Notes: generated by a model from the letters alone, not told the origin. Positions 24,329-45,088 are shown, counted from the stretch's first letter. The stretch: 64,000 nucleotides of DNA from Arthrobacter sp. Marseille-P9274 (GCF_946892675.1 NZ_CAMPOV010000001.1:1896033-1960032), one strand, 5' to 3'. A program made the numbers and translations.

Positions 24329-24820
24329 CTATCCTTGCGGCTCGGCGTCCCGCCTCCCGGACGCAGCCTGGACCAAAGGCAGCGTCCGGCTTTCGAAATG
24401 GCTGTTCAGGACAATCACCGAGGAGGACCGAAGCACGGTATTAGTGCCTGTGATTTCGTCCAGCACGCGCTGCAGGTCGGCGTTGGACCTGGCGACGACG
24501 CAGGCGAGTAGGTCGCTCTCGCCGGATACGGTATGCAGTTCCAGGACCTCGGGAATGCGTGCGAGCGCGGCAGCGACGGCGTCGTGGCCGATCTCCTGCC
24601 GGATGACGAGCGAACAGTAGGCCTTCACGACGTAGCCGAGTTCGGCCGGCTCCAGGCGCGGTCCCCACCCGGCGATCACCCCGGCGCGTTGCATCTTGTC
24701 GAGCCGGGCCTGTACCGTGGCACGGGCCACTTTAAGGACCCGGGAGGCTTCCAGGACGGACATTCTCGGGTCCTGGCTGAACAGCGTGACGATATCCGAA
24801 TCCAGCGAATCGATATTCAT
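24329..24820 (-). CDS. Lrp/AsnC-family transcriptional regulator
   Basis: 163 residues with an N-terminal HTH (LFSQDPRMSVLEASRVLKVARATVQARLDKMQRAGVI, about 14-50) and a C-terminal ligand-binding RAM domain (VLELHTVSGESDLLACVVA, about 90-110). These proteins sense amino acids. It is divergent from an amino-acid permease and about 1.7 kb from a 2-oxoacid dehydrogenase-like operon, both plausible targets. An inverted repeat AAACC-N6-GGTTT (24827-24842) overlaps its Shine-Dalgarno region and could be an autoregulatory site; weak evidence. Confidence 0.9.
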   Translation of the reverse strand: MNIDSLDSDIVTLFSQDPRMSVLEASRVLKVARATVQARLDKMQRAGVIAGWGPRLEPAELGYVVKAYCSLVIRQEIGHDAVAAALARIPEVLELHTVSGESDLLACVVARSNADLQRVLDEITGTNTVLRSSSVIVLNSHFESRTLPLVQAASGRRDAEPQG

Positions 24821-24969
24821 CCGTTGAAACCTCTTTCGGTTTGACTAGCCATTCGGCTGCGGGACATACAAATTGTCATCCGGGCCGCCGGCTGGACCAA
24901 ATGCAGCGGCGAAGGCCCGCGCCCGCTGCCTGCCGCCACCGCGGCAGTGTGATGACAGGAAATTCCACA

Positions 24970-26379
24970 ATGACGAGATTCCCCCGTACGTCCGGGCAGT
25001 CCACTGGCACCCATCACGCCGGACTCGGCCAATCCATGAAGCCGCGGCAGCTGATCATGATGGGACTCGGCAGCGCCATCGGCGCGGGCCTGTTCCTCGG
25101 CTCCGGAGCAGGGGTCCAGGCGGCCGGGCCCGCGGTGCTGGTGTCCTACCTGATCGCCGGGACCCTGGTGATCATCGTGATGGGAGCGCTGGGCGAGATG
25201 GCCGCCGCGCATCCCAGCAGCGGCGCCTTCTCCACCTATGCAGAGAAGGCGCTGGGTCCGACGGCGGGTGCCACTATCGGCTGGCTCTGGTGGGGACAGC
25301 TGGTCATTGTGATCGCAGCGGAAGCGGTGGGGGCCGCCGGGCTGATCGCCTCCGTCTGGCCGGGGCTGCCGGTGTGGCTGCTGGCCCTGACGTTCATGGT
25401 CATATTCACCGCCATCAACCTGCTCGGCGTGAACAACTACGGCGAGTTCGAATTCTGGTTCGCCATCATTAAGGTTGCGGCCATCCTGGCCTTCCTGGCC
25501 GTCGGCGTAGCCCTGATGGCCGGCTGGCTGCCGCAGACACCGTCGCCGGGCCTGACCAACATCCTCGGAACGGACGGCTTCGCCCCGGCAGGCCTCGGCG
25601 GCATCGCCACCGGCCTGCTGGTGGTCATCTTCGCCTTCGGAGGCACCGAAATCGTCGCGGTTGCCGCCGCCGAAACCAGGAACCCGCAGCGCAGCGTGGC
25701 CCGGGCGGTCAAGACGGTGGTGTGGCGCATCCTGGTGTTCTATGTCGGCTCCGTCCTGGTCATCACGCTGGCGGTGCCGTGGGATTCGCCGTCCCTGGCC
25801 TCGCCCTTCGCGGCGGTCCTCACGGAGGCCCGGATCCCCGGCGCGGACGTCGCCATCACGCTGATCGCCGCCGTCGCCCTGCTGTCCGCCCTCAACGCGA
25901 ATCTTTACGGCGCATCCCGCATGATCTTCTCGCTTTCCCGGCGCCGCGATGCCCCGGCCGGGCTGCAGATCATCACCTCGCGCGGCGTCCCCGTTCCCGC
26001 CGTGCTCGCCTCGGTGGCCTTCGGCTTCGCCGCCACCGTCCTGGAGCTTTTGTTCCCGGAAAAGGTGCTCCCGGTGCTGCTGAACTTTGTCGGCTCGACC
26101 TGCCTGGCCGTATGGGGAATGGTGCTGCTGTCCCAGCTCATCCTCCGCCGGCGTGCCGTGCGCGAGGGCGAACCGCTGCCGATGAAACTGCCTGGTTATC
26201 CCTGGACAAGCGGCATCGGCCTCGTGCTGCTGGCCGGGATCATCATCATCGGCCTGTTCTCTCCGGCCACAGCACTCCAGCTCGGCAGCACAGCCGCCCT
26301 GATCACCGTGATTGCACTGCTGAGCAGACTCGCCGTGAACCGAAGGCACACCACCGCCGATGCCCTGCACCACAGCTGA
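24970..26379 (+). CDS. Amino acid permease, APC superfamily (AAT-like)
   Basis: Proton-coupled amino-acid transporter of about 469 residues with 12 predicted helices. The AAT-type N-terminal signature MKPRQLIMMGLGSAIGAGLFLGSG begins near residue 19, followed by GALGEMAAAHPSSGAFSTYAEKALG near residue 80. I placed the start at 24970 (AGGA 9 nt upstream); the frame is open further 5' but that part is Arg/Pro-rich and unlike the family. Divergent from an Lrp regulator, which probably controls it. The substrate is not evident. Confidence 0.9.
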   Translation: MTRFPRTSGQSTGTHHAGLGQSMKPRQLIMMGLGSAIGAGLFLGSGAGVQAAGPAVLVSYLIAGTLVIIVMGALGEMAAAHPSSGAFSTYAEKALGPTAGATIGWLWWGQLVIVIAAEAVGAAGLIASVWPGLPVWLLALTFMVIFTAINLLGVNNYGEFEFWFAIIKVAAILAFLAVGVALMAGWLPQTPSPGLTNILGTDGFAPAGLGGIATGLLVVIFAFGGTEIVAVAAAETRNPQRSVARAVKTVVWRILVFYVGSVLVITLAVPWDSPSLASPFAAVLTEARIPGADVAITLIAAVALLSALNANLYGASRMIFSLSRRRDAPAGLQIITSRGVPVPAVLASVAFGFAATVLELLFPEKVLPVLLNFVGSTCLAVWGMVLLSQLILRRRAVREGEPLPMKLPGYPWTSGIGLVLLAGIIIIGLFSPATALQLGSTAALITVIALLSRLAVNRRHTTADALHHS

Positions 26380-26558: not shown

Positions 26559-27587
26559 ATGGCCGCTGAATTGCCTGGCCTTGACCACGCTGTCCTGACC
26601 GACGATGACCAGCGCCGGCTGTACCGCCTCATGGTGGCCGTGCGCCGCCTGGACGAGTCGGCCATCCGCTGGCAGCGGCAGGGCCTGATCCCCGGCTACG
26701 CCCCCGAACTGGGGCAGGAGGCGGCACAGGTCGGCAGCGGCTACGTGCTGGACATGTCCCGCGACTTCGTGTTCCCCACCTACCGGGAGATGGGCGTGGC
26801 CCGCACCGTCGGCGTCGACATGGTGGAGTACATGGCCACGCACAAAGCCACCTGGCACGGCGGGCTCTACGACCCCGCGGCGTCGCGCTTCGCGCCGATC
26901 CAGGCCGTCGTGGCCGGCTCCGTGCTGCACGCCGTCGGCTGGGCCCATGCCCAGACCATGGACGGAACCGGCGGCGCAGCCATCACCTACTTCGGTGACG
27001 GCGCCAGCTCCCAAGGCGACGTCCATGAGGCAATGAACTTCGCTGCCGTCATGAAGGCCCCCGTGGTCTTCTTCATCCAGAACAACGGCTGGGCCATTTC
27101 CATGCCCACGGAACGCCAGGTCGCCGGCGGGTCGGTCGCGGCCCGCGCGGCGGGCTACGGCATTCCTTCGCTGCAGGTTGACGGGAACGACGTCGTTGCC
27201 GTCGCCGAGGCGACGGCGGCCGCACTGGCGCACGCCCGCTCGCGCAAGGGACCGGCCATCGTCGAGGCCATGACCTACCGCCGCGGACCGCACTCCACCA
27301 GCGATGACCCAGGGCGGTACCGCACCCTCGAGGCCGAGCGGGCCGACGCGGGCGAGGATCCGATCCAGCGCATGCGCGCGCACCTCCTGGCAGAGGGACT
27401 TGCCGATGAGGCTTTCTTCGACGAAGCGCTCGCCGCGGCCAAGGCGGAGGAGGAACGCATCCGCGAGGGCATCATCGGCCTTGGATCACGCCCCGGCACG
27501 GAGATGTTCGACTTCGTCTACCAGGAACCGACACCAGCTTTGAAGGCACAGGCCCGCGCCTGGCGGGAGGAGTCCGAACATGTCTGA
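26559..27587 (+). CDS. Thiamine-dependent 2-oxoacid (or acetoin) dehydrogenase E1, alpha subunit
   Basis: TPP enzyme subunit of 342 residues that with E1-beta decarboxylates a 2-oxoacid or cleaves acetoin and passes the acyl group to lipoate. The TPP motif runs from GDGASSQGDVHEAMNFAAV to the closing NN (about 147-178). YRRGPHSTSDDPGRYR (about 246-261) is the phosphorylation-loop region seen in branched-chain and pyruvate E1-alpha. AGGAGG precedes the ATG. Overlaps the beta gene by 8 bp. Pyruvate, branched-chain acids or acetoin are all possible substrates; the downstream lipoyl and hydrolase genes favour an aco-like system. Confidence 0.9.
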   Translation: MAAELPGLDHAVLTDDDQRRLYRLMVAVRRLDESAIRWQRQGLIPGYAPELGQEAAQVGSGYVLDMSRDFVFPTYREMGVARTVGVDMVEYMATHKATWHGGLYDPAASRFAPIQAVVAGSVLHAVGWAHAQTMDGTGGAAITYFGDGASSQGDVHEAMNFAAVMKAPVVFFIQNNGWAISMPTERQVAGGSVAARAAGYGIPSLQVDGNDVVAVAEATAAALAHARSRKGPAIVEAMTYRRGPHSTSDDPGRYRTLEAERADAGEDPIQRMRAHLLAEGLADEAFFDEALAAAKAEEERIREGIIGLGSRPGTEMFDFVYQEPTPALKAQARAWREESEHV

Positions 27588-28749
27588 GCACACCACCCTC
27601 AGCGACCTCGAAGCAGCGCGCGACAACACCCGGGATGCCGCGGCGCAGCTGGAATTCGTCGAGACGATCGAACCTGCGGCAGGGAGCGGGCGTCAGGCCC
27701 CGGCTTACACAGACACGGCTGCCACCCAGACGGCTGTTGCAGAGGCGACGGTTGCAGAGCCGGCCATCGAGACCTTGTCCATGCAGCAGGCCCTGAACCG
27801 CGCACTCTCCGAGGTCCTTGAGGCCGACCCCAAGGCCATGGTCCTGGGCGAGGACGTCGGCCAGCTCGGCGGCGTCTTCCGCGTCACCGACGGCCTGCAG
27901 CGCAGGTACGGCGAAGACCGGGTCTTCGACACCCCGCTCGCCGAATCCGGCATCCTCGGCATGTCCGTCGGCCTGGCCATGGCCGGCTACCACCCGATTC
28001 CCGAGGTTCAGTTCGACGGTTTCGCCTACCCGGCGGTCAACCAGATCATCTGCCAGGTCGGCCGCATGAACTACCGCAGCCGCGGCAAGCTGCCCATGCC
28101 CATCACCCTGCGCGTGCCGAGCTTCGGCGGCATCCGCGCCCCGGAGCACCACGGGGAATCGCTCGAGGCGCTCTTCGCGCACGTTCCCGGGCTCAAGGTG
28201 GTCTCGCCGTCGAGCCCGAATGAGGCGTACCACCTGCTCAAGTTCGCTGCCGGCAGGCCCGACCCGGTGGTCTTCATGGAGCCGAAGTCCCGCTACTGGC
28301 AGAAGGGCCCCGTGGACACCGCCGGCACCGGCTACTCCCCCGAAGGCGCCCGCGTTGTCCGCGGGGGCCGGCATCTGACGCTGGTGGCCTGGGGCGCCAT
28401 GGTCGTCCGCTGCCTGCAGGTTGCCGAACTCGCAGCCGAAGACGGAATCGACATCGAGGTGCTGGACCTGCGCTGGCTCAAGCCCATTGACGCCGAAGCA
28501 CTGGCGGCCTCCGTCACCAAGACGCGCCGCGCCGTCGTCGTCCACGAAGCACCCCTGACCTCCGGCCTGGGCGCGGAAGTAGCCGCGCTCATTACCCAGC
28601 ACTGCTTCGCGACACTGAAGGCGCCCGTTGAGCGGGTCACAGGTTTCGACGTACCGTATCCCTCAGGAGACCTGGAGGACGAGTACATTCCCAACATTGA
28701 CCGCATCCTGTTCGGGATCCAGCGAGTATTGGAGTATCGCCGTGGCTGA
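27580..28749 (+). CDS. Thiamine-dependent dehydrogenase E1, beta subunit, with N-terminal extension
   Basis: 389 residues. The transketolase-like core starts at ETLSMQQALNRALSEVLEADP (about residue 65) and includes VLGEDVGQLGGVFRVTDGL (about 88-106) and PLAESGILGMSVGLAMAGY. About 65 extra Ala/Thr/Glu-rich residues precede the core. They look genuine because a strong GGAGGAG lies 8 nt before the ATG at 27580, within the alpha gene. Overlaps both neighbours by 8 bp, so the whole operon is coupled. Confidence 0.9.
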   Translation: MSEHTTLSDLEAARDNTRDAAAQLEFVETIEPAAGSGRQAPAYTDTAATQTAVAEATVAEPAIETLSMQQALNRALSEVLEADPKAMVLGEDVGQLGGVFRVTDGLQRRYGEDRVFDTPLAESGILGMSVGLAMAGYHPIPEVQFDGFAYPAVNQIICQVGRMNYRSRGKLPMPITLRVPSFGGIRAPEHHGESLEALFAHVPGLKVVSPSSPNEAYHLLKFAAGRPDPVVFMEPKSRYWQKGPVDTAGTGYSPEGARVVRGGRHLTLVAWGAMVVRCLQVAELAAEDGIDIEVLDLRWLKPIDAEALAASVTKTRRAVVVHEAPLTSGLGAEVAALITQHCFATLKAPVERVTGFDVPYPSGDLEDEYIPNIDRILFGIQRVLEYRRG

Positions 28750-29071
28750 AATTTCCTTTCCACTGCCGGACCTGGGCGAGGGCCTGATCGAGGCAACCGT
28801 GCTGGAGTGGCTCGTCGCCGAGGGCGAACAGATCGAGCGGAACCACCCGCTGGTCGAGGTCGAAACCACCAAATCCGCCGTGGAACTCCCCTCCCCGCAG
28901 GCCGGCAAGGTCCTACGGGTTTACGGCGAACCCGGTGACATCATCAAGGTCGGCGAGCCGCTGATCGTCTTCGAAGTCCCGGACGACACCGCCGGCATCG
29001 TCGGCACGGTGCCCCAGGAGCAGGCACCCAAGCGCCGCGTCCGGCTGACCGCCAACCTGGACGAGGACTGA
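28742..29071 (+). CDS. Stand-alone lipoyl-domain protein (truncated E2)
   Basis: Only 109 residues: a single lipoyl domain with the lipoyl-lysine motif VETTKSAVEL near residue 44 (Lys in the ETTKSAV hairpin), then a short charged tail EQAPKRRVRLTANLDED. The peripheral subunit-binding and acyltransferase domains of ordinary E2 are absent, and the open frame ends here by a clean stop. GTG start with GGAG 7 nt upstream, inside the E1-beta gene. The next gene encodes an alpha/beta hydrolase; together they correspond to the two halves of AcoC, the E2 of some acetoin dehydrogenases. Function as the swinging arm of this complex is inferred. Confidence 0.85.
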   Translation: MAEISFPLPDLGEGLIEATVLEWLVAEGEQIERNHPLVEVETTKSAVELPSPQAGKVLRVYGEPGDIIKVGEPLIVFEVPDDTAGIVGTVPQEQAPKRRVRLTANLDED

Positions 29072-29076
29072 CCGGC

Positions 29077-29883
29077 ATGGGCAGGCACCGCGATCAGACC
29101 GTGGAGGGCGTGGACCCGCACCTGAACGTGCACGTCCACGAGGCCGCACCGGGAACCACCGGCCCGCACCGTCCGATCATCCTGCTCCACGGGTTCGCAT
29201 CCTCCACCAAGCTCAACTGGGAGGACGCAGGCTGGATCACCGCGCTGACCCAGGCCGGGCGGCGCGTCGTCACCGTGGACCTGCCCGGCCACGGGGGCAG
29301 CCCCGCACCGGAGGAGATGGACGCCTACTCGCCCAGCCGGATCCGCGCGGACCTGCTGCAGCTGATCCTCAATGCGCACGTGCGCCCCTTAAAGGACGAC
29401 GACGATTCCACCGGAGTGGACCTGATCGGCTATTCGCTGGGCGCGCGTCTGGCGTGGGAGTTCGGTGCCACCCAGCCCGAACTGGTCCACAGAATCGTGC
29501 TCGGCGGGCCCGGCGCCCACGACCCCCTGGCCGACTTCGACCTGCCGGCCGCCCAGCGCTACCTGGCGGACGGCTCGGAGATCGCAGACCCGTCCACGGC
29601 GGAGCTGCTGCGCATGGCCCAGCTGGTGCCCGGCAATGACGTCTTTGCCCTGCTGACCATGATCGAAGCGATCAAGACGGAGCCGTTCGTCCCCTCCGAG
29701 GCCGTACCGCGAATGCCCGTGCTGCTGGTGGCGGGTGAACGAGATGAGATGGCGCGGACGGCACCGGAGCTGGCCAAGCTGGCTCCCCGCGCCGAGCTGC
29801 AGTGGCTCCCGGCCAGGACCCATGCCAACGCCATCACCAGCCGGGCCTTCAAGACAGCCGCCATCGACTTCCTCGCCAGCTAG
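29077..29883 (+). CDS. Alpha/beta hydrolase, AcoC C-terminal-like
   Basis: 268 residues with the alpha/beta-hydrolase fold: oxyanion-hole region HRPIILLHGFASSTKLNWED (about 28-47), nucleophile elbow GYSLGA (Ser about 117), and catalytic His in ARTHANAITSRAF near the end. It begins 5 bp after the lipoyl gene with GAGGA upstream, so it belongs to the operon. In AcoC-type E2 proteins a lipoyl domain is fused to just such a hydrolase domain; here they are separate. An unrelated esterase role cannot be excluded. Confidence 0.85.
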   Translation: MGRHRDQTVEGVDPHLNVHVHEAAPGTTGPHRPIILLHGFASSTKLNWEDAGWITALTQAGRRVVTVDLPGHGGSPAPEEMDAYSPSRIRADLLQLILNAHVRPLKDDDDSTGVDLIGYSLGARLAWEFGATQPELVHRIVLGGPGAHDPLADFDLPAAQRYLADGSEIADPSTAELLRMAQLVPGNDVFALLTMIEAIKTEPFVPSEAVPRMPVLLVAGERDEMARTAPELAKLAPRAELQWLPARTHANAITSRAFKTAAIDFLAS

Positions 29884-29889
29884 AGGCCT

Positions 29890-30001
29890 CCTCACGGCAG
29901 CCAGCCGTGATGGGCGGGCGCCTCGCGGCAGCCAGCCGTGACGGGCGGGCGCCTCGCGGCAGCCAGCCGTGATGGGCGGGCGCCTCGCGGCAGCCGCCCA
30001 T
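29890..30001. repeat. Tandem repeat, about 3.6 copies of 31 bp
   Basis: Units start at 29890, 29921, 29952 and 29983 (partial), built on CTCGCGGCAGCCAGCCGTG. They directly follow the hydrolase stop. The rest of the gap to the kinase gene (30002-30260) holds two imperfect copies of a segment containing CCCGCTGCGGCACT (about 30052 and 30115) and no gene. Confidence 0.9.
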
Positions 30002-31372: not shown

Positions 31373-31493
31373 GTAGCTACTGCTCCGGTGTGACTACGTC
31401 CTAACGCGACTGGTGTATCGACGAAGGTAGCTACTGTCTTGACGGAAGTAGCTACAGCCCTGACGGGGCTACCGTCTTGACGGAAGTAGCTGC
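31373..31493. repeat. Cluster of GTAGCTAC palindromes
   Basis: The 8-bp palindrome GTAGCTAC occurs at 31373-31380, 31427-31434 and 31448-31455, with a near copy GTAGCTGC at 31486-31493. The last two sit in a longer shared segment TCTTGACGGAAGTAGCT repeated 38 bp apart. The cluster lies in the convergent gap between the kinase and HNH genes and runs a few codons into the HNH 3' end. Confidence 0.75.
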
Positions 31494-33262
31494 TGACTTC
31501 GTGACTTTGGTCGAGGCGGGAGGCTCGTCTGCCAATACGCATTGCGCAAAGGTCTTCTATCCGGATCAATGTAGGCGGGCGGAGTGAACCAAGGAATCCC
31601 CTCTGCAACTTTGATCGTCCAGTTGCCTTGCTCGATCAAATCATGATGCAGAATGCACAGGCAGACGCCGTTGGAGACACTCGTGTGCCCGCCGGCCCAC
31701 CACGGCACGATATGGTGCGCTTCCGTCCAGAAGGCCGGCATCGTGCATCCCGGGAAGGCGCAGCCCTTGTCCCTGGCCACGAGCGCCCGGCGTGTGGCTC
31801 GGTTGAAGAACCGTTGTGAGCGACCCAGATCCAGGACTTCGCCTCGGGACCCGAGAACGGCAGGGATTATCTCTGCATCGCAGGCCATGCGGCGGGCTGC
31901 CGTCGCTGAAATGGGCCCGTTGAAAACCGCATTTGCGCCGCCTGTCAGGAGTCCGGCGAGTTGCTCGTATCCGGTGGTAACAACGACCTGGGCCCGGTGT
32001 CCGCCGGAATCCGGAAGCCGACCGGTGTTCAGGGCAATCTTGCACGTGCTGACAAGTCCGGCGAGCAATTTCTGCGCCCTGGTGCAGCCGTCCAGTCCCG
32101 CCAGCACGCTAGGCGCCAGGGCCGGATTGTCCGACACAAAGGCCGCGTCCGCCTGATCGGCCCACCTCGCGTCTTCGTCGGCGCGGGTTTGCCGACCGAG
32201 GGTGTCTGCTTCGGCTTCAATTCGCCCACCCACACCACCCGTCCCGACCGCTTCAGAGCCTCCGCCGACACCAGCCGTCCCGACCCCTTCCACGCCACCG
32301 CCAACACCAGCCGTCCCGACCGGTTCAACGCCTCCACCCACACCACCCGTCCCGACCGATTCAGATCCTCCGTCGGCCGCGACTTGGATCGCGTCCGGTC
32401 GAATGCGCGGGTTGGTCGCGGTGTTCATGGCGGTCGCCATGGCTTCGTACTGTTCGTCCGTGGTGTTGATGACGAACTGGTGCAGCCCCCGCCGCCGGCC
32501 TCGGTAGAAGACGCCTTGGCGGGCCTTGAGCTCTTCCTCGCTCGGCTCGGCTCCATTCTGGTCGACGGCGGTTTCCCAGGTTTTGGCCACCATGCCCAAG
32601 GTGTCGGCATCCGTTTCGGCAGCCTGCTGCACTAGGGAGGCTTCCATGGCTTCCAACGTCTCGTTGTCGGCAACGCAGGCAACACGGGCGAGCGAATCGG
32701 TCACCAGGGCAGCAGCGTGGCCGCTGACCTCACCTGCAGCCATCGCCTGGGCGAGCGACGGCAGGGCAGGTGCTCCGACTTCCCCATCGAGCCGAACCGG
32801 CCTAGCGATGGCCTTCCCGACCCTGATCCGGCGCCGCGCCTCCACAATGCCGATTCCCAACCGCGAGCGCAGATACTCAGCGTTGTTGGCGAACTCGGTC
32901 TTCCGCCGTTTGCGGTTCCTTACTGCCAGCTCCGACGAGCCCAATGGGTCCTGCATCCCAATGGCGGCCGCAGGGTCGGCCCACGCAGCGGTGCCGAAAT
33001 CGGCCGCCGTCGACTGACTGGGAGCGGAGTTTCCAACCGTGGCGGCTAGGTCAGCCTGTTCGACGGCGTGGGCACCCACGGCCTGGAAGAACTCCACGAC
33101 CTTCGATACATCTTCGAAGGCTGCTACAACTGCAGCCAAATCCAGAGGTGGCAGAACCGCTGCCTCGGCTTGGAACCGGGCAGCCAATTCCAGCAGGCGC
33201 TCACGGATTCCGAGGATGGATGCTTCCATCTCTTCGGTTGCGTCCAATGGGATGAGGGCCAT
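31469..33262 (-). CDS. HNH endonuclease-domain protein with DUF222 (13E12-repeat family)
   Basis: 597 residues. The N-terminal two thirds resemble DUF222, the conserved region of 13E12-type proteins found in many copies in actinobacteria. The C-terminal HNH motif is seen in DKGCAFPGCTMPAFWTEAHHIVPWWAGGHTSVSNG, with HH and a Cys pair near residues 490-525, then LHHDL. A glycine-rich insert of four 12-residue repeats (VGTGGVGGGVEP-like) interrupts the middle at about 298-345, encoded by a 36-bp tandem array. The biological role of the family is unknown; nuclease activity is inferred from the HNH motif. Confidence 0.87.
   Translation of the reverse strand: MALIPLDATEEMEASILGIRERLLELAARFQAEAAVLPPLDLAAVVAAFEDVSKVVEFFQAVGAHAVEQADLAATVGNSAPSQSTAADFGTAAWADPAAAIGMQDPLGSSELAVRNRKRRKTEFANNAEYLRSRLGIGIVEARRRIRVGKAIARPVRLDGEVGAPALPSLAQAMAAGEVSGHAAALVTDSLARVACVADNETLEAMEASLVQQAAETDADTLGMVAKTWETAVDQNGAEPSEEELKARQGVFYRGRRRGLHQFVINTTDEQYEAMATAMNTATNPRIRPDAIQVAADGGSESVGTGGVGGGVEPVGTAGVGGGVEGVGTAGVGGGSEAVGTGGVGGRIEAEADTLGRQTRADEDARWADQADAAFVSDNPALAPSVLAGLDGCTRAQKLLAGLVSTCKIALNTGRLPDSGGHRAQVVVTTGYEQLAGLLTGGANAVFNGPISATAARRMACDAEIIPAVLGSRGEVLDLGRSQRFFNRATRRALVARDKGCAFPGCTMPAFWTEAHHIVPWWAGGHTSVSNGVCLCILHHDLIEQGNWTIKVAEGIPWFTPPAYIDPDRRPLRNAYWQTSLPPRPKSRSQQLLPSRR
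32226..32369. repeat. In-frame 36-bp tandem repeat inside the HNH gene
   Basis: Four copies; the marker CCGTCCCGACC recurs at 32239, 32275, 32311 and 32347, exactly 36 bp apart. It encodes Gly/Val-rich 12-residue units. Copy changes would preserve frame. Confidence 0.9.
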
Positions 33263-33344
33263 GCCGCCACCCTACGAGCACAGGCATTCGAAGGCGAGAA
33301 AAAACAGGCGGTGTGTAGGTACAGTCGGCATCCCGGCAGTAGGC

Positions 33345-33424
33345 GGTTCTGAGCGGAGCCGGTTCTGAGCGGAGCCGGTTCTGAGCGGAGTCGGTTCTGA
33401 GCGGAGTCGGTTCTGAGCGGAGTC
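33345..33424. repeat. Tandem repeat, 5 copies of 16 bp
   Basis: Five perfect or near-perfect units of GGTTCTGAGCGGAGYC, where Y is C in the first two and T in the rest. They lie 83 bp upstream of the HNH start in the 345-bp divergent gap before the FAH-RraA gene. Copy-number variation is likely. The remainder of the gap holds the hpa-type promoter. Confidence 0.95.
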
Positions 33425-33539
33425 GTCCCATTCGTGGAGTCGTCCGCCAGAAGGGGCCACAGCCCGCCCGCGTCCCCGCTCCCGCCCCACGCTCCAAGGG
33501 AGCGAATGACTGACCGTTTGGAAATGTTCCGACCAGGGG

Positions 33540-35127: not shown

Positions 35128-35805
35128 ATGTCGACCGCCGCGACGGCGACCGCTTCGAAGTCGGAACGGGCCTACCAGCTGCTCCATGAGCGGATCGGCA
35201 ACGGCCAGCTGGTGCCTGGCTACCGCTTGGTGCTGAGCAGCATCGCCGACGAGCTCGGTTGCAGCGTAGTTCCGGTCCGGGAAGCGATCCGACGGCTCGA
35301 GGCCGAAGGACTCGTCACCTTCGAGCGGAACGTCGGAGCAACGGTTGCCTCCATCGACGCGACGCTCTACCTGCACACTATGCAGACCTTGAGCATCGTC
35401 GAAGGCGCCGCGACAGGCCTGGCCGCCCACCTCATCACCGACGAGGACCTTCGCCGGGCGCGCGAGCTGAACAACCAGCTGCGCGAGTGCCTGGAGAACT
35501 TCGAACCGGTCCGCTTCACGCGGCTGAACAACCAATTCCACGCCATCCTTTACGGCCGGTGCCCCAATCCGCACATCCTGGACCTGGTGCACCGCGGCTG
35601 GAACCGCTTGAACGCCATGCGTGCCTCCAGCTTCGACCTCGTGCCCGGCCGGGCGCGGGAGTCCGTCGAAGAACACGAAGGGCTGCTCGAACTCCTGGAG
35701 GCCAAAGCCAGCCCGCACGAGATCGAGATGGCCGCCCGGGCCCACCGGACCGGAACCCTCAACGCCTACATGGCCCAGAAGAACCAACCACCCTCCGTCC
35801 TTTAG
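35128..35805 (+). CDS. GntR-family regulator with FCD ligand domain
   Basis: 225 residues. The winged-helix HTH is at about 15-75 (GYRLVLSSIADELGCSVVPVREAIRRLEAEGLV) and the all-helical FCD domain follows, with HAILYGRC and an acid-rich helix. It starts 2 bp after the fusion gene stop, so it is co-transcribed with the pathway it probably represses. The palindrome at 33571-33582 is the expected operator. The inducer is probably homoprotocatechuate or a pathway intermediate (inference). Confidence 0.9.
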   Translation: MSTAATATASKSERAYQLLHERIGNGQLVPGYRLVLSSIADELGCSVVPVREAIRRLEAEGLVTFERNVGATVASIDATLYLHTMQTLSIVEGAATGLAAHLITDEDLRRARELNNQLRECLENFEPVRFTRLNNQFHAILYGRCPNPHILDLVHRGWNRLNAMRASSFDLVPGRARESVEEHEGLLELLEAKASPHEIEMAARAHRTGTLNAYMAQKNQPPSVL

Positions 35806-35839: not shown

Positions 35840-37369
35840 ATGGCCGACCACTTTGTGCCCGAAAACCTGCCCACCCACCTCCAGCACTACATCGGCGGCA
35901 AGCTCGTCGACTCGATCGATGGCGATACCTTCGACGTCCTGGACCCCGTCACCAACAAGCCGTACATCAAGGCCGCATCCGGCAAGGTCGCCGACGTGGC
36001 CGCGGCGGTCGCCGCCGCCAAGGACGCTTTCGAGAACGGCCCCTGGCCGACCATGCTTCCCCGCGAGCGCTCCCGCGTGCTGCACCGCATCGCTGACATC
36101 GTCGAATCCCGCGGCCAGGAACTGGCCGAGATGGAGTGCTTCGACACCGGCCTGCCGATCAAGCAGGCCCTGGGCCAGGCACGCCGCGCGGCGGAGAACT
36201 TCCGCTTCTTCGCCGACCTGATCGTCGCCCAGCACGATGACGCCTTCAAGGTCCCCGGCCGCCAGGCCAACTACGTCAACCGCAAGCCCATCGGCGTTGC
36301 CGGCCTGATCACGCCGTGGAACACCCCCTTCATGCTGGAGTCCTGGAAGCTGGGCCCGGCCCTGGCGACCGGCAACACCGTGGTCCTGAAGCCGGCCGAG
36401 TTCACCCCGCTCTCCGCCTCCCTGTGGCCGGGGATCTTCGAAGAGGCCGGCCTGCCGGAGGGTGTCTTCAACATCGTCCACGGCTTCGGTGAAGAGGGCT
36501 ACGCCGGCGATTCCCTGGTCAAGCACCCGGATGTCCCGCTGATCTCCTTCACCGGCGAGTCCCGCACCGGCCAGATCATCTTCGGCAACGCGGCTCCCTA
36601 CCTCAAGGGCCTGTCCATGGAGCTGGGCGGCAAGTCCCCCGCCGTCGTCTTCGCGGATGCCGACTTGGAGGCCGCCATCGACGCGACCATCTTCGGCGTC
36701 TTCTCCCTCAACGGCGAGCGCTGCACCGCCGGATCCCGCATCCTGGTCGAGCGGAGCATCTACAACGAGTTCGTGGAGCGCTACTCCGCCCAGGCCAAGC
36801 GCGTGAAGGTCGGCTACCCCCACGACGAGGCCACCGAGGTCGGCGCCCTGGTCCACCCGGAGCACTTCGAAAAGGTCATGTCCTACGTCGAGATCGGCAA
36901 GCAGGAGGCGCGCCTGACTGCCGGCGGCGGCCGCCCGGAGGCATTCCCCGAGGGCAACTTCATCCAGCCGACCGTCTTCGCCGACGTCGCACCGGACGCC
37001 CGGATCTTCCAGGAGGAGATCTTCGGACCGGTCGTCGCCATCACCCCGTTCGATTCGGACGAGGAGGCCCTCGAACTGGCCAACAACACGAAGTACGGCC
37101 TCGCTGCCTACATCTGGACCAATGACCTCAAGCGGGCCCACAACTTCGCCCAGGATGTCGAGGCCGGCATGGTGTGGCTGAACTCCAACAACGTCCGCGA
37201 TCTGCGCACCCCCTTCGGCGGCGTCAAGGCTTCAGGCCTGGGCCACGAGGGCGGTTACCGCTCCATCGACTTCTACACCGACCAGCAGGCCGTCCACATC
37301 AACCTCGGCGAGGTGCACAACCCGGTCTTCGGCAAGGCCGAGGACGCCGCCGCCGTAAGCGACAGCTAG
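35840..37369 (+). CDS. hpaE: 5-carboxymethyl-2-hydroxymuconate semialdehyde dehydrogenase
   Basis: NAD-dependent aldehyde dehydrogenase of 509 residues, oxidising the ring-cleavage semialdehyde of homoprotocatechuate. ALDH landmarks are the N-terminal INGK-like YIGGKLVDS, ITPWNTPFMLESWKLGPALATGNTVVLKPAE with the cofactor site, catalytic Glu in LSMELGGKSP (about 262) and catalytic Cys in NGERCTAGSRI (about 296). GAAAGG precedes the ATG. Assignment to HpaE rather than another ALDH rests on the adjacent dioxygenase. Confidence 0.88.
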   Translation: MADHFVPENLPTHLQHYIGGKLVDSIDGDTFDVLDPVTNKPYIKAASGKVADVAAAVAAAKDAFENGPWPTMLPRERSRVLHRIADIVESRGQELAEMECFDTGLPIKQALGQARRAAENFRFFADLIVAQHDDAFKVPGRQANYVNRKPIGVAGLITPWNTPFMLESWKLGPALATGNTVVLKPAEFTPLSASLWPGIFEEAGLPEGVFNIVHGFGEEGYAGDSLVKHPDVPLISFTGESRTGQIIFGNAAPYLKGLSMELGGKSPAVVFADADLEAAIDATIFGVFSLNGERCTAGSRILVERSIYNEFVERYSAQAKRVKVGYPHDEATEVGALVHPEHFEKVMSYVEIGKQEARLTAGGGRPEAFPEGNFIQPTVFADVAPDARIFQEEIFGPVVAITPFDSDEEALELANNTKYGLAAYIWTNDLKRAHNFAQDVEAGMVWLNSNNVRDLRTPFGGVKASGLGHEGGYRSIDFYTDQQAVHINLGEVHNPVFGKAEDAAAVSDS

Positions 37370-37398
37370 CCCCGAGACCCATTCCAAAGGAGAGAACA

Positions 37399-38496
37399 AT
37401 GAGCAACGAGATTCCCAAGCCCTCCGTCCCGGCACCCGACATCCTGCGCTGCGCGTACATGGAGATCGTCGTCACCGACCTCGCCAAGTCCCGCGCCTTC
37501 TATGTCGACCTGCTCGGCCTGCACGTGACCGAAGAAGACGAAAACGCGATCTACCTGCGCTCCTTCGAGGAGTTCATCCACCACAACCTCGTGCTCCGCA
37601 AGGGTCCGGTCGCCGCCGTCGCCGCCTTCGCCTACCGCGTGCGCAGCCCCGAGGACGTGGATAAGGCCGAGGCCTACTACAAGGAACTCGGCTGCCGCAC
37701 CGAGCGCCGCAAGGAAGGCTTCGTCAAGGGCATCGGCGACTCGCTCCGCGTCGAGGATCCGCTGGGCTTCCCCTACGAGTTCTTCCACGAGACGGAGCAC
37801 GTCGAGCGCCTGCACATGCGCTACGACCTGTACTCCGCCGGCGAACTCGTCCGCCTGGACCACTTCAACCAGGTCACCCCGAATGTGCCGCGCGGCCGCA
37901 AGTACCTCGAAGACCTCGGCTTCCGCGTGACCGAGGACATCAAGGACGCCGAGGGCACCACCTACGCCGCCTGGATGCACCGCAAGGGCACCGTGCACGA
38001 CACCGCCCTGACCGGCGGCAACGGCCCGCGCATGCACCACGTCGCCTTCTCCACCCACGAGAAGCACAACATCATCCAGATCTGCGACAAGATGGGCGCC
38101 CTGCGCATGTCCGACCGGATCGAGCGCGGCCCCGGCCGGCACGGCGTCTCCAACGCCTTCTACCTGTACATCCTGGATCCGGACGGCCACCGCGTGGAGA
38201 TCTACACCCAGGACTACTACACCGGCGACCCGGACAACCCCGTCATCACCTGGGACGTCCACGACAACCAGCGCCGCGACTGGTGGGGCAACCCCGTCGT
38301 CCCGTCCTGGTACACCGAAGCATCGCTGGTCCTCGACCTGGACGGCAACCCGCAGGAAGTCGTCAAGCGCGAAGATACCTCCGAAATGGAGGTGACCATC
38401 GGCGCCGACGGGTTCTCCTACACCCGTGCGGACGATGAGTCCGGCTCCTACCGCGGCGAGGCGGCCAAGGGCTTCAAGCTCGGCAACCTGGTCTGA
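37399..38496 (+). CDS. hpaD: 3,4-dihydroxyphenylacetate (homoprotocatechuate) 2,3-dioxygenase
   Basis: Extradiol dioxygenase of the vicinal-oxygen-chelate class, 365 residues, cleaving the aromatic ring of homoprotocatechuate. The metal ligands fall at H155, H214 and E267 and the second-shell acid/base at H200, the same numbers known for the Mn enzyme MndD of Arthrobacter globiformis and the Fe enzyme HPCD of Brevibacterium fuscum. Metal choice (Mn or Fe) cannot be read from sequence. Each half has a VOC repeat (YMEIVVTDLAKSRAFYVDLLGL and RLDHFNQVT). AAAGGAGA precedes the ATG. Last gene of the unit, followed by a strong hairpin. Confidence 0.95.
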   Translation: MSNEIPKPSVPAPDILRCAYMEIVVTDLAKSRAFYVDLLGLHVTEEDENAIYLRSFEEFIHHNLVLRKGPVAAVAAFAYRVRSPEDVDKAEAYYKELGCRTERRKEGFVKGIGDSLRVEDPLGFPYEFFHETEHVERLHMRYDLYSAGELVRLDHFNQVTPNVPRGRKYLEDLGFRVTEDIKDAEGTTYAAWMHRKGTVHDTALTGGNGPRMHHVAFSTHEKHNIIQICDKMGALRMSDRIERGPGRHGVSNAFYLYILDPDGHRVEIYTQDYYTGDPDNPVITWDVHDNQRRDWWGNPVVPSWYTEASLVLDLDGNPQEVVKREDTSEMEVTIGADGFSYTRADDESGSYRGEAAKGFKLGNLV

Positions 38497-40295: not shown

Positions 40296-40817
40296 CTATA
40301 GTTGTCCGGCTGATCTCCTGATCCAGGTGGCAGCGGCCATCGCCCCCGCCAGTTCCAGCAAGATGACGGTCAACATGGGACCGGCGCTGCCCGTTCCGCC
40401 GCCGGCTCCGGAGGACGCGGCCTGCACCGTGGCAGCGACCGCGGTGTGGTGCAGGTGCGGTGCGTGGGCCCCGCCGCCCAGCGGCTGCACGAGCAGCAGC
40501 AGGTGGAAACCGGCCATCGCCAGAGCCATGCCCATGAAGCTCCGGGCCGCTCCGGCGCATCCGGACCGCCAGAGCTGCACGACGCAGGACAGGCAGGCGG
40601 CAGCCATCAAGACCATCAGGCCGGACTCCCACCAGCTCCCGCGGTGCAGCCACGCCATCCAGCCGTGCGCGGCGGCCGATGCCACTGCCGCCCCGGCGCA
40701 GAGCCTGGGGTGCAGCGGCACCGGCCGTCGGACCGCGAGGAGGGGGCGTGCCTGCAGGGCCGGGCCCACGATGGCAGCGTCAGCCACAGCAGCGTCAGCC
40801 ACAGCCGTCTCAGCCAT
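40296..40817 (-). CDS. Membrane protein coupled to amine oxidase, unknown function
   Basis: No family recognised. 173 residues with three or four hydrophobic segments ([51 protein letters not shown]), and a short His-rich loop [12 protein letters not shown]. Its ATG overlaps the last 8 bp of the copper amine oxidase gene, so it is translationally coupled. The His-rich loop and coupling make a role in copper delivery or in membrane placement of the oxidase conceivable, but there is no direct evidence. Confidence 0.7.
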
Positions 40818-42720
40818 GGCAGTGCCCGCCGGCGGGCTTGTTCGGCGGCACGTCGAGGACGGGGCTCCGGTCGAAGAAGCCTTCCGGCCGCAGCTTGAAG
40901 CCGGCGGTGTCCACCGGCATGATCGGCCAGTCCTCCACCCGCGGGTAATGCGTCAGGCCGAAGGTATGCCAGAGCACGATGTCCTCGCCGTCGATCCCCC
41001 GGTCCTGCGCCACATAGGCCGGCAGGCCGGCATCCCCGGCGTGCTGGTTAACGAAATCCCCGGTCGGGTAGCGCTCCTCTTCGGCGTGGCGGGTCACCCA
41101 GAGGTCCTTCGTGGCAAAGGCCGCGCGCCGCGCCACCGATGACCCGGGATCCGCGAGCAGCATGGGCTGGCCCTGCGGATGCAGCTTGTAGCCCACCGGC
41201 TCGCCCAGGCGGTTCAGCGACTCCGGATTGGAAATGAGCCAGGTGCGACCGGCCGCCATGTCGGCTTCCCTGGCACCCTCGGCCTCCGTTCGCAGCAGCG
41301 TACGACGGCGGGTGAACGCGTTTCCGCGCTCGTTGCCTTCGCCGAGGGGGACCCGGACCGCCTCTTCCTCTTCCACCCGGTTCGTCAGGCCGTCCAAAGC
41401 CATGTCCAGGCGGGCGCTGAACAGGTGCTGGTGGAAGGGGGCACCCAGGCCGGGAGCCATTTCGGAAGCGTAGGGGTAGCCCTTGCCGGGGTGGGCGCTG
41501 GTGAACACGATGCCGGTGGCCTTCGCCTCGAACTCGATCGTGCCGTCCAGGTAGAGGTACCAGTAGAAGCCGTAGTCGTAGTTGCCGATGGTGGTGAAGA
41601 ACGAAACGACCATCCGGCGGTTGCGTCGGGTGTAGTTGATGCCGGTCCACAGGTCGGAGTGCTTGGCCAGGATGGACCAGTCCTCCTCGTGCATGCAGAT
41701 GCCGTTGCGGATCTCGCGCGGGTTGCCGAAGCCGTCGGCGATCACGGGCGACAGGTAGGTGATGTCGCCCAGGCAGTCGCAGCCCAGCTCCAGGGAGTTG
41801 GCATACTGGCCCACCAGGTACTCGCCGGTGTCGAAGTAGTTCTGCCAGGACCGCACGGGCGAGGGGTCGCCGTAGGGGACCACCATTTCGGCGATCGATG
41901 CGCGCCGGATGATCGAGCGCTTGCGTTCCCCGTCCTGGAAGGCGATGTTGTGCAGGACCACGCCCTCGCGGACGTCGAAGCCGACATCGAAGCTCCACTT
42001 TTCCCACTCGATGTGGTTGCCGCCGGAGACCGTGAAGCTCGGGCCCTCCGGCTGGGTGATGCTGATCGGCTTCTGGGTCTCGCGCAGGGGCCCGGTCAGC
42101 TCAGGATCGGTGTAGTTGCCGTGCTCGGCCGGGACCGCGACCGGACCGAAGTCCAGCACCTGGTCCACCGTCTTGCTGACGATGTCGACGTAGGCAACCA
42201 GCCCGTCCACCGGATGCGCCCAGGCGCTGTCTTCGGGGAAATTCTGGTAGAAGGCGAGACCGCGCAGGATGCGCCGGCCCTTCTCCTCGGGGTATTCGAA
42301 GACACCGGCGGAGAGCGGGGCAACCCGCACCTTATCGACGTCGAGGTTCCGGTCGGCGAGCGCCTTCAGCCAGCGCTCGTCCCCGGCGAGGATTTCCTCG
42401 ACGACGGCGAACTCCTCCTCGAGTACCGGCAGCTCGCCGGTGACGGAGGTATCCAGGTCGGTTACCGATTCCACCTCGTCCCGGGTTACCGACACCACCA
42501 CGTCCTTCGGTGCTGCACCCGAGACGTCGTGCAGGAAAGCGCGGAACCGCCGGTCCTCCTTGGACGCCGCTCCGCGGGGCGGGTCGAGCAGGCCCAGGTA
42601 GGCGAAGCGGATGTTTTCTCCGGCGAGGCCAGCGTCGGCCAGGATCCGGCGGACCTGGGTGATTTCGTCGGCGGACGCCAGCGCGTAGGCGGAGGAAAGT
42701 TCCGTAGAGGAGATGGTCAT
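40810..42720 (-). CDS. Copper-containing primary amine oxidase, phenylethylamine oxidase type
   Basis: Quinoprotein oxidase of 636 residues that converts primary amines to aldehydes with ammonia and hydrogen peroxide. The cofactor tyrosine that becomes topaquinone is in [11 protein letters not shown] near residue 380; copper ligands are in [11 protein letters not shown] (about 430) and [14 protein letters not shown] (about 590). The sequence looks very close, from memory, to Arthrobacter globiformis AGAO, including the terminal HCHG. Phenylethylamine, tyramine or dopamine are likely substrates, feeding phenylacetate or hydroxyphenylacetate pathways such as the neighbouring hpa genes. GGAAGGG precedes the ATG. 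Divergent from a TetR regulator. Confidence 0.94.
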
Positions 42721-42742
42721 GGCTGCCCTTCCAGCGGTTTCG

Positions 42743-42817
42743 CGACGCCGATTGCGTCGTTTTTCTATGACTGTAGAGAATAGCCGTCCGTAAAATAGCT
42801 CACAAGGGTTTTTCTAC
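42743..42817. promoter_or_regulatory. Divergent amine oxidase/TetR control region
   Basis: In a 121-bp divergent gap: perfect inverted repeat CGACGC-N5-GCGTCG (42743-42759); a smaller one TCTA-N6-TAGA (42764-42777); and the octamer TTTTTCTA twice (the second at 42809-42816). AT-rich compared with its surroundings. Either could be a TetR operator; no assignment is possible. Confidence 0.4.
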
Positions 42818-42841
42818 AATTGACGCAAAACAAGGAGCACG

Positions 42842-43468
42842 ATGCCCAAGATCGTCGACCACGACCAGCGCCGGGTCGAACTGGTCAACGCAACCTGGCG
42901 CATCATCGCGCGCCATGGCATGGAAGGCGCGACCATGCGGGAGATCGCCACCGAAGCGGGATTCGCCAACGGTGCGCTGAAGCCGTACTTTCCCACGAAG
43001 GACGACCTGCTGACCTTCGCCTTCGGGCACGTCTTCAACCAGACGAACCGGCGGATGGAAGCGAAGACGGCGGACCTGGCCGGCCTCGAAGCCCTGCGCG
43101 CCTTCTGCCACGAAATCCTTCCCCTCGACGAGGAAAGGATCAGCGAGGCCCGCATCGTCATTCCGTTCTGGCAGAAGGCCTTGACCGATCCCGCAAAGAC
43201 GCGACTGCACGAGGAGTCCATGGCCCAATGGCAGGCATCCCTCCGCAAGTACCTCGGCCAAGCGCGCACGGCAGGAGAAATTTCGGCCGAAACCCTGGAC
43301 GACCAGGTCGCCGGATTCCTCATGACCTTCGTCCTGGGCGCGCAGATCACCGCAGCCCTCACCCCGGCGACGCATGCCCCGGAGCAACTCGCCGCTCAAC
43401 TGGACGCCTACCTGAAGCTCCTCGCCGGCCGCCTGACTAGTTTTTCGCCCGACGTCGAAAAAAGGTGA
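42842..43468 (+). CDS. TetR-family transcriptional regulator
   Basis: 208 residues. The N-terminal HTH is clear: QRRVELVNATWRIIARHGMEGATMREIATEAGFANGALKPYFPTKDDLL (about 9-57). The helical C-terminal ligand domain follows. Divergent from the amine oxidase and upstream of AraC and permease genes on the same strand, so it probably controls amine catabolism. The ligand is unknown. AAGGAG precedes the ATG. Confidence 0.92.
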   Translation: MPKIVDHDQRRVELVNATWRIIARHGMEGATMREIATEAGFANGALKPYFPTKDDLLTFAFGHVFNQTNRRMEAKTADLAGLEALRAFCHEILPLDEERISEARIVIPFWQKALTDPAKTRLHEESMAQWQASLRKYLGQARTAGEISAETLDDQVAGFLMTFVLGAQITAALTPATHAPEQLAAQLDAYLKLLAGRLTSFSPDVEKR

Positions 43469-43502
43469 CATTGCGGCCCTCCCGGGCTAGATTGGATGCA
43501 TT

Positions 43503-44606
43503 GTGATTCACGCCACGCCGTTATTGCAGCCATCTTCCGCCGCCGGCCATCCCGCGGCGGACGGCGCCGTCGCCCCAACACCGCAGGTCGAAGCAGCCCG
43601 CACCGCACTTGGCCCCGAGGTCGGGACGGCCCCGGGCCCCGAAGCCGAGGCCGCCCGCGCCGCGCCGGCCCCGGGTGTCGAGACGGCCCACGCCGCCAGC
43701 TTTGCCCAGTGGCGCAACCTGGTCAACCAGTCCTTCGTGCCGCTGGATGTGCAGACGGACGCGACGGAAGCGTTCCGCGGGCGGATCCGCTCGCGCGTGC
43801 TGGACGAGCTCTCCATCGTCGAAGTCTCCGCCAACGGCCACCGCGTGCTCCGCACGCCGTCGCTGATCTCGTCCTCCGACCGGCTGTACTACAAGCTCAA
43901 CCTCCAGCTCTCGGGCCACGGCCTGCTTATCCAGGACAACCGCGAAGCCAGCCTGCGGCCGGGCGACCTCGCCGTCTACGACACTCACAGGCCCTACACC
44001 CTGGGCTTCGAGTCGGACTTCCGTACCCTGGTCCTGATGTTCCCGCATGAGGCGCTCGATCTGCCCGCCGATGCAGTCGGCCAGCTCACCGCCGTCCGGC
44101 TCCCCGGCGACGCCGGCCTGGGACGGATGATCAGCCCGTTCATGGCACAACTCGCCGAGAACCTGGACGCGCTCTCGGGCAACAGCGGCCAGCGGCTTGC
44201 CAACAACGCTGTGGACCTGATCGCCACCATGTTCGAGAGCGAACTCGACGCCCGGCGCGAAACGGATGCGGGGAGCCACCCGGAACTCCTCGCCAGGATC
44301 CGCCGCTACATCGAGGCCAACCTGGGCAATCCGGACCTCTCCCCCGCCGAGATCGCTGCTGCCCACTACGTCTCGACCCGCCACCTGCACAATATTTTCG
44401 CCGCTTCGGGCACGACGGTAGCGAGCTGGATCCGGGCCCGCAGGCTGGACCACTGCCGGAGGGACCTGCGCGACCCGATCCTGGCGGACCGGCCGGTCGG
44501 CAGCATCGCCGCCCGCTGGGGTTTCCTTGATGCCGCGCACTTCAGCCGCATCTTCCGCAGCAGCTTCGGCGTGCCGCCCAGCAGTTACCGCCGCCAGGAC
44601 GCCTGA
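43503..44606 (+). CDS. AraC-family transcriptional regulator (FeaR-like)
   Basis: 367 residues. After an Ala/Pro/Glu-rich repetitive N-terminus of about 60 residues, the ligand/dimer domain of the AraC-binding-like type runs from FAQWRNLVNQSFVPLDV to about residue 240 (GDLAVYDTHRPYTLGFE). The two-HTH DNA-binding domain is at the end (LSPAEIAAAHYVSTRHLHNIF and GSIAARWGFLDAAHFSRIFRSSFGVPPSSYRR). In E. coli the similar regulator FeaR activates amine oxidase genes; the same role here is inferred from position. GTG start at 43503 with no clear Shine-Dalgarno; a downstream start in the Ala/Pro region is possible. Confidence 0.87.
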   Translation: MIHATPLLQPSSAAGHPAADGAVAPTPQVEAARTALGPEVGTAPGPEAEAARAAPAPGVETAHAASFAQWRNLVNQSFVPLDVQTDATEAFRGRIRSRVLDELSIVEVSANGHRVLRTPSLISSSDRLYYKLNLQLSGHGLLIQDNREASLRPGDLAVYDTHRPYTLGFESDFRTLVLMFPHEALDLPADAVGQLTAVRLPGDAGLGRMISPFMAQLAENLDALSGNSGQRLANNAVDLIATMFESELDARRETDAGSHPELLARIRRYIEANLGNPDLSPAEIAAAHYVSTRHLHNIFAASGTTVASWIRARRLDHCRRDLRDPILADRPVGSIAARWGFLDAAHFSRIFRSSFGVPPSSYRRQDA

Positions 44607-44790
44607 CCGGAGACCGAGTAGGCCCCGCAAGCACGGATTTCGCCGTCCAGGCGAAGCACACGCAAGCGCCCTCGCCGGATTTCGCGGCGAGTCCGCCGTC
44701 GTGCCCCTGCCCCCGCGCAGTCCTGCCCTGCCCTCCTGCTGCTCCGCTCTGTCCTACCGGGCCTTACCCGAAGCAGTGCGCCGCCTCTCA

Positions 44791-44955
44791 CACGGCACCG
44801 GCCGCCGTCGCCCACGATCCACCGCCCCTGACCGCAACGGCCTCCGCCTCCGTCGCCCACGATCCACCACCGCTTACGCTGCTCTGGCCGCACACGGCCG
44901 CCGCCGCCGTCGCCCACGTTTCACCCCTGGCCGCACACGGCACCGGCCGCCGTCG
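44791..44955. repeat. Interspersed short repeats in gene-free spacer
   Basis: The 20-mer CACGGCACCGGCCGCCGTCG occurs at 44791-44810 and 44936-44955, and CCGTCGCCCACGATCCACC at 44805-44823 and 44850-44868 with a degenerate third copy near 44908. The whole gap 44607-45088 otherwise shows only the permease Shine-Dalgarno and no gene; open frames there are Arg/Pro-rich artefacts. Confidence 0.7.
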
Positions 44956-45088
44956 TCCGCCCGGCTGAGAGCCCCCACCAGCGCAAGCTGTGCACGATTC
45001 GACAAGTGCAGTACCGCCAAGGGCAAGGCCCGCCCGGGCCGCCGTTGCCACAATCGAAACATCTTTTATTCTCCCGTTGGAGGTTTTC

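Follow-up and report, generated by a model that had tools for sequence, protein, structure and literature searches.

The present analysis concerns a cassette of four genes in a 64,000-nucleotide stretch of DNA (the window) from Arthrobacter sp. Marseille-P9274 (GCF_946892675.1, NZ_CAMPOV010000001.1:1896033-1960032). The genes lie on the plus strand and encode the alpha and beta subunits of the E1 component of a 2-oxo acid dehydrogenase, a stand-alone lipoyl protein (lip) and an alpha/beta hydrolase. E1-alpha (342 amino acids, 26559-27587) matches PF00676 with 261 bits and TIGR03181 with 387 bits, slightly below the cut-off of the latter; it carries the thiamine diphosphate motif GDG...NN at residue 146 and, in the Protein Data Bank, matches the E1-alpha of pyruvate dehydrogenase (PDH; 1w85, 5e-59). 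E1-beta (389 amino acids, 27580-28749) contains the Pfam Transketolase domains and matches a 2-oxoacid dehydrogenase beta subunit (1um9, 2e-82) over residues 66-386, with a weakly conserved N-terminal extension of about 60 residues. The gene for lip (109 amino acids, 28742-29071) starts with a GTG at 28742 and so overlaps the final codons of E1-beta, whose stop codon is at 28747-28749; its own stop codon is at 29069-29071. The hydrolase gene (268 amino acids, 29077-29883) starts with an ATG at 29077, 5 bp 3' of the lip stop, and stops at 29881-29883. The original prediction, made from this DNA alone, had described such an arrangement of an E1 pair, a 109-residue lipoyl-only protein and, 5 bp further on, a 268-residue hydrolase; its coordinates were exact and Pfam agrees with it. 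We suggest that the cassette could be a 2-oxo acid dehydrogenase system that works without an E2 core, releases its product by hydrolysis and has an aromatic substrate in Micrococcaceae, a reading held tentatively, with its chances just short of even.

Textbook 2-oxo acid dehydrogenase complexes are built around an E2 core, which transfers the acyl group to coenzyme A (CoA). In the cassette, Pfam finds neither the subunit-binding domain (PSBD) nor the acyltransferase core PF00198 in lip or the hydrolase, as had been predicted, and neither was found elsewhere in the cluster. The Pfam matches of lip are Biotin_lipoyl PF00364 (61.5 bits) and weaker biotin/lipoyl-like families only, with no GcvH family among them. 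The predicted lipoyl lysine, K44, sits in VEVETTKSAVEL, and K44 of this ETTK motif is invariant in the lip alignments. The protein comprises a lipoyl domain (residues 1-80) and a conserved tail (85-109) ending in ...KRRVRLTANLDED. The tail follows the motif GI(V/I)Gx(V/I)P...RRV(R/K)L, and RRV(R/K)L is present in every aligned row of the alignments A2, A3 and A5, which cover three families. A structure model of lip has a pLDDT of about 90 for residues 1-80 and about 52 for 81-109, the tail being modelled as disordered. The genome's own E2s of branched-chain 2-oxo acid dehydrogenase (BCKDH) type show a similar VLVGYG/VLIGYG...R-rich (RRRR) linker after the lipoyl domain, with the PSBD further on. 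Because its tail resembles this linker motif that precedes the PSBD, lip looks like an actinobacterial BCKDH-type E2 truncated between the linker motif and the PSBD. The GIVG.VP..RRVRL tail may be a docking peptide that stands in for the missing PSBD.

The hydrolase matches only alpha/beta-hydrolase families in Pfam (PF00561/PF12697), and its structure model has a pLDDT of 91.8. Its nucleophile motif GYSxG, which contains S120, is invariant; S120, D223 and H249 are invariant in 33 and in 29 aligned sequences, and from motif and position we infer that these residues form the catalytic triad. The MenH model gives it 61 bits, above its score with the model of AcoC, the corresponding protein of acetoin dehydrogenase. 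In a tree that took in only two AcoC sequences, the cassette hydrolases of the three families group together (100/99), and both AcoC and the 14 background hydrolases fall outside their clade. The E1-beta tree has similar main groups, an indication that the four cassette genes have moved as a unit. In two divergent Micrococcaceae a second related hydrolase stretch lies near the cassette hydrolase (L101:7412-8086 and L100:1004-1330).

Among 197 sampled Micrococcaceae genomes, an orthologue of the hydrolase was present in 137 and lip in 65, both being over threshold in 64; the 65th genome with lip (G067) has a divergent hydrolase at the same position and none over threshold. The order E1-alpha, E1-beta, lip, hydrolase was seen in every examined Micrococcaceae lip locus, so that a search for the same order in relatives, which had been proposed as a check, returned it in 65 of the 197 genomes. 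The named loci, the best 80 of 366 from a genome-wide contig scan, fall into three families: Micrococcaceae (Arthrobacter, Paenarthrobacter including P. aurescens TC1, Pseudarthrobacter, Sinomonas, Kocuria and Zhihengliuella), Microbacteriaceae (Leifsonia, Agrococcus and Diaminobutyricibacter) and Nocardiopsidaceae (Nocardiopsis, Streptomonospora, Marinactinospora and Murinocardiopsis). The hydrolase is 3' of lip in all 80 and the E1 pair is 5' of it in 79, which gives the same order in 79 of 80; the stop of lip falls right after RRV(R/K)L in 80/80, and a coarse check placed lip and hydrolase in the same frame in only four. In Arthrobacter sp. AQ5-06 (L247) both E1 genes are apparently missing between an amino-acid permease gene and lip, lip and hydrolase being kept, a partial loss of the cassette. 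Outside the three families, phylum-wide draws gave only E2-like lipoyl domains in long open frames, and no cassette was found on plasmids, where the only matches were E2-like (48-56% identity).

The recurrence of the lip stop and of the gene order across three families excludes a sequencing slip, an assembly error or a frameshift, and with it the case, named beforehand as refuting, of one base that joins the two frames into a single AcoC. A decayed or mis-sequenced E2 remnant would account for the resemblance of lip to a truncated E2; its probability is practically nil, and it is refuted by the open reading frames (ORFs), the invariant active-site residues and the stop and tail, all conserved in the three families.

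The original prediction had also likened the two small proteins to the two parts of AcoC, and their summed length and their order do match that protein. Descent from AcoC or equivalence to it, however, is not supported. The AcoC model NF011457, whose cut-off is 307 bits, gave 50.3 and 49.4 bits on the two halves, and a tblastn search with the hydrolase against actinobacterial AcoC gave no match; fused full-length AcoC proteins were found in Actinomycetota. The identity of lip is 49-53% to the genome's own E2s as against 36-40% to AcoC, and that of E1-beta is 49-52% to three of the genome's own BCKDH-type E1-betas as against 36-39% to AcoB. In the E1-beta tree the cassette forms a clade (97/97) apart from AcoB, and this clade groups with three PDH/BCKDH-type E1-betas of the same genome; a fourth E1-beta of the genome groups with AcoB on a long branch. 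A split acetoin dehydrogenase, with AcoC in two pieces and acetoin as substrate, is thus disfavoured by the model scores, by these identities and by the separate clades of E1-beta and hydrolase, and is given a very small probability in spite of the fit in length and order.

The genome (4.78 Mb) encodes PF00198 cores and E1_dh proteins in equal number, six of each. An E2 of its own lies close to each of four E1 clusters, Kgd is a fusion that includes a core, and the sixth core belongs to an E2 with two lipoyl domains. The E1 pair in the window is the only one in the genome without an adjacent PF00198 core.

From the gene structure, conservation, linkage and phylogeny, which were observed directly, we infer the following catalytic steps and the substrate. 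Free lipoyl domains are substrates of E1 and of E3. By analogy with its family, an E1 alpha2beta2 tetramer would decarboxylate a 2-oxo acid and reductively acylate the lipoate on K44 of free lip; it is very likely that E1 and lip act together. Since an acyltransferase is absent, the adjacent Ser hydrolase would be the obvious release enzyme, its Ser-Asp-His triad cleaving the acyl-dihydrolipoyl thioester to the free acid with no need of CoA. We consider such hydrolytic release rather probable, and the acyl group, the destination of which the original prediction had raised as a question, would then probably go to water. The general E3 of the cell would reoxidise the carrier with NAD+. In this scheme lip would be a shuttle like the H protein of glycine cleavage, possibly docked through its tail. 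An alpha/beta hydrolase, ABHD11, has been described to hydrolyse acyl-lipoyl and not acyl-CoA (PMC12643935). On the other side, in AcoC (NF011457) the partner of the lipoyl domain is an alpha/beta-hydrolase domain in place of the acyltransferase that one would expect, and the gene order of the cassette is the domain order of AcoC. The hydrolase could accordingly be a stand-alone acyltransferase that passes the acyl group from lip to CoA, by convergence with the hydrolase part of AcoC, and the product would be an acyl-CoA. This is improbable: the hydrolase lies outside the AcoC clade and lacks a tblastn match to AcoC, and the neighbouring homoprotocatechuate (hpa) pathway takes free 4-hydroxyphenylacetate and not its CoA ester.

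That neighbourhood points to a substrate for the proposed system of hydrolytic release. Within 10 kb 3' of the cassette in the window, all on the plus strand, lie an HpaG-like gene for a FAH-RraA fusion (PRK12764; 33434-35125, NF009399 813 bits), a GntR/FCD regulator of the hpa cluster (35131-35805, Pfam GntR and FCD), HpaE, the 5-carboxymethyl-2-hydroxymuconate semialdehyde dehydrogenase (35840-37369, TIGR02299 645 bits, over cut-off), and HpaD, the 3,4-dihydroxyphenylacetate 2,3-dioxygenase (ORF 37174-38496 with the match from about 37438, TIGR02295 458 bits, cut-off 321). PRK12764 combines an FAH-type hydrolase/decarboxylase with an RraA-like domain and also occurs in the hpa clusters of Kocuria, Sinomonas and Diaminobutyricibacter. 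HpaD is found in 180 of the 197 Micrococcaceae, and its mere presence there is uninformative, which takes away one possible support for an aromatic substrate; linkage was therefore used in this family and the test of presence was moved to Microbacteriaceae. It was found that HpaD lies at most 15 kb from the hydrolase in 28 of the 39 Micrococcaceae cassette genomes that have both on one contig, about 0.8% being expected for independent positions, though related genomes are counted here and the binomial figure overstates the significance. In Microbacteriaceae, HpaD is present in 67 of 169 genomes, yet in 7/7 of those with the cassette (P = 0.0013). In Sinomonas and Zhihengliuella hpaG-GntR-hpaE-hpaD follow directly 3' of the hydrolase on the same strand, and in two Microbacteriaceae cassette and hpaD are 1-2 kb apart and oppositely oriented. 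As the arrangement differs between genera and families, the linkage probably had more than one origin, and these independent arrangements together with the Microbacteriaceae test are safer evidence than the count of 28/39. An aromatic 2-oxo acid is thus slightly favoured as the substrate in Micrococcaceae. In this family and some Microbacteriaceae the likely reaction would be that of 4-hydroxyphenylpyruvate, derived from tyrosine, to 4-hydroxyphenylacetate, which would feed the neighbouring homoprotocatechuate meta-cleavage genes.

It should be noted here that several observations weigh against this interpretation of mechanism and substrate. The E1 sequences give no indication of the substrate. 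A fold search with the hydrolase returned generic esterases, lactonases and MenH-like hydrolases, tied at Z of about 25, and is not diagnostic. HpaD is absent from 18 of 20 cassette-bearing Nocardiopsidaceae (present in 2/20), so the homoprotocatechuate route is not the role of the cassette everywhere, and the substrate or the downstream route differs there; it is also absent from at least four Micrococcaceae cassette genomes (G085, G136, G163 and G077). EC 1.2.3.13, the 4-hydroxyphenylpyruvate oxidase, is presumably recorded as an oxidase using O2, whereas the proposed scheme would reduce NAD+. The hydrolase, moreover, occurs without lip in 73 of the 137 hydrolase-bearing Micrococcaceae genomes, E1 and lip being absent where inspected. 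Several of these lip-less hydrolases keep the same address, with nadA-nrtR on one side and a kinase on the other, and in the tree they are interspersed among the cassette carriers. Because it persists in these 73 genomes, the hydrolase, judged by its distribution, has some use of its own, and the dependence appears to be one-way: lip needs the hydrolase and the hydrolase does not need lip. The description of an E2 split in two goes too far: lip looks like a cut-off E2, while the hydrolase is unrelated and also persists alone.

The lip-less hydrolases are compatible with a different division of labour, in which lip is an extra swinging arm for another E2 core, for example a BCKDH-type core, and the hydrolase serves the aromatic pathway by hydrolysis of an ester or a ring-fission product. 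Full E2 cores are present elsewhere in the genome, the lip tail resembles the VLVGYG...RRRR linker of its own E2s, and the lip-less hydrolase is at most 30 kb from HpaD in 22 of 40 testable cases. Nevertheless lip was always seen beside a hydrolase, also in the mostly HpaD-less Nocardiopsidaceae; it has no PSBD or other core-binding part, and the hydrolase and E1-beta trees share their main groups. We therefore regard such an extra arm as rather improbable.

A further possibility keeps the mechanism of hydrolytic release and changes the substrate to branched-chain or other aliphatic 2-oxo acids, the hpa linkage then being mostly an inherited neighbourhood. The E1 proteins are nearest to PDH/BCKDH-type enzymes, and upstream of the cassette a divergent regulator of the Lrp/AsnC family is encoded on the minus strand (24329-24820, Pfam AsnC_trans_reg and HTH_AsnC), an orthologue of which adjoins most cassettes. 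The cassettes of Nocardiopsidaceae, a family mostly without HpaD, are close to AtuA and acyl-CoA oxidase genes and not to hpa genes, and no aromatic catabolism genes were found in the neighbourhoods examined in that family. As against this, hpa genes adjoin the cassette in varied orientations in different genera of two families and HpaD accompanies it in all seven Microbacteriaceae; in addition, three BCKDH-type E1-E2 clusters, close to the cassette in the E1-beta tree, already exist in the genome. An aliphatic substrate is for these reasons considered unlikely, although less so than the other alternatives.

Between the regulator and E1-alpha lies a gene for an amino-acid permease of the GABA/proline/aromatic APC type (24841-26379, plus strand, Pfam AA_permease 339 bits), which is kept 5' of E1-alpha in most Arthrobacter and Sinomonas loci. 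The nearest NCBIfam models are GABA permease, ProY, phenylalanine and AroP transporters, all below cut-off. In Agrococcus casei a GlcD-like FAD-linked 2-hydroxyacid oxidase adjoins the Lrp regulator of the cassette (L195:1978-3333), and a similar ORF is seen at L227:1801-3189; such an oxidase might supply the 2-oxo acid. Further downstream in the window, a copper amine oxidase of the AGAO type (aromatic amine oxidase) is encoded on the minus strand (40810-42720, PF01179 503 bits, with an AGAO-like N2 domain); this oxidase, a FeaR-like AraC regulator and a second amino-acid permease occupy 40810-46573 and together with the hpa genes make up a 20-kb region of aromatic amine and amino acid catabolism. 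Three repeats were also observed: a 31-bp GC-rich tandem repeat of 3.4 copies (29890-29995) directly 3' of the hydrolase stop, 36-bp repeats (32232-32372) within a reverse-strand ORF (31469-33262), and a 16-bp array of five copies with 98% match (33344-33425) just outside that ORF.

A 4-hydroxyphenylpyruvate oxidase of Arthrobacter is said to have been described by Blakley in 1977, and no sequence for it was found in the literature searched. Activity of this kind is proposed for the cassette because of its linkage to hpaG, hpaE and hpaD, which makes it a candidate for the sequence-less enzyme. In Arthrobacter arilaitensis, which grows on tyrosine and has the hpa genes, no gene for the 4-hydroxyphenylpyruvate oxidase could be located (PMC2991359). 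Tyrosine and 4-hydroxyphenylacetate support the growth of strain Rue61a and phenylacetate does not; the nearest sequenced relative of this strain is TC1 (PMC3534580), which carries the cassette (L180). GapMind leaves out tyrosine degradation via 4-hydroxyphenylpyruvate oxidase "due to a lack of knowledge" (PMC9007349). In its full form the proposal is that of a coreless, CoA-independent system with a diffusible carrier and a dedicated acyl-lipoyl thioesterase, which in Micrococcaceae would be the missing oxidase of the route from tyrosine to homoprotocatechuate; this we hold as a possibility that falls somewhat below even. If true, the E1-lipoyl half of such a complex can run alone with hydrolytic release, with neither core nor CoA step, and there is a gene candidate for the tyrosine step missing in the A. 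arilaitensis genome paper and in GapMind. The conserved four-gene set of soil actinobacteria would then be a case where the central scaffold is replaced by a free lipoyl carrier and a separate hydrolase.

The cassette shares with the PDH and BCKDH complexes a heteromeric E1 with the thiamine diphosphate motif, a lipoyl domain with its lipoyl lysine and probably a common E3; it differs from them in a cluster without PSBD and PF00198 core, in a lipoyl domain that is a free 109-residue protein and in the hydrolase 3' of it. In AcoABC, too, an E1 pair stands beside a lipoyl domain with an alpha/beta hydrolase unit after it, whereas the cassette has two proteins, separate in all 80 named loci, a lipoyl domain nearer to BCKDH-type E2s, and E1-beta and hydrolase of other clades. 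The glycine cleavage H protein and LbpA of sulfur oxidation are likewise small free lipoyl carriers that shuttle between enzymes; lip, in contrast, has the fold of an E2-type lipoyl domain, and its partners would be E1 and a hydrolase. With EC 1.2.3.13 of Arthrobacter the cassette would share the net reaction, 4-hydroxyphenylpyruvate to 4-hydroxyphenylacetate and CO2, and the organism group, while it should pass its electrons to NAD+ via E3. Mammalian ABHD11 (PMC12643935) is an alpha/beta hydrolase proposed to act on acyl-dihydrolipoyl thioesters, and the cassette hydrolase has the predicted Ser-Asp-His triad; ABHD11, however, is a repair enzyme of the 2-oxoglutarate dehydrogenase complex (OGDHc), whereas the cassette hydrolase would carry out normal product release and is encoded beside its carrier.

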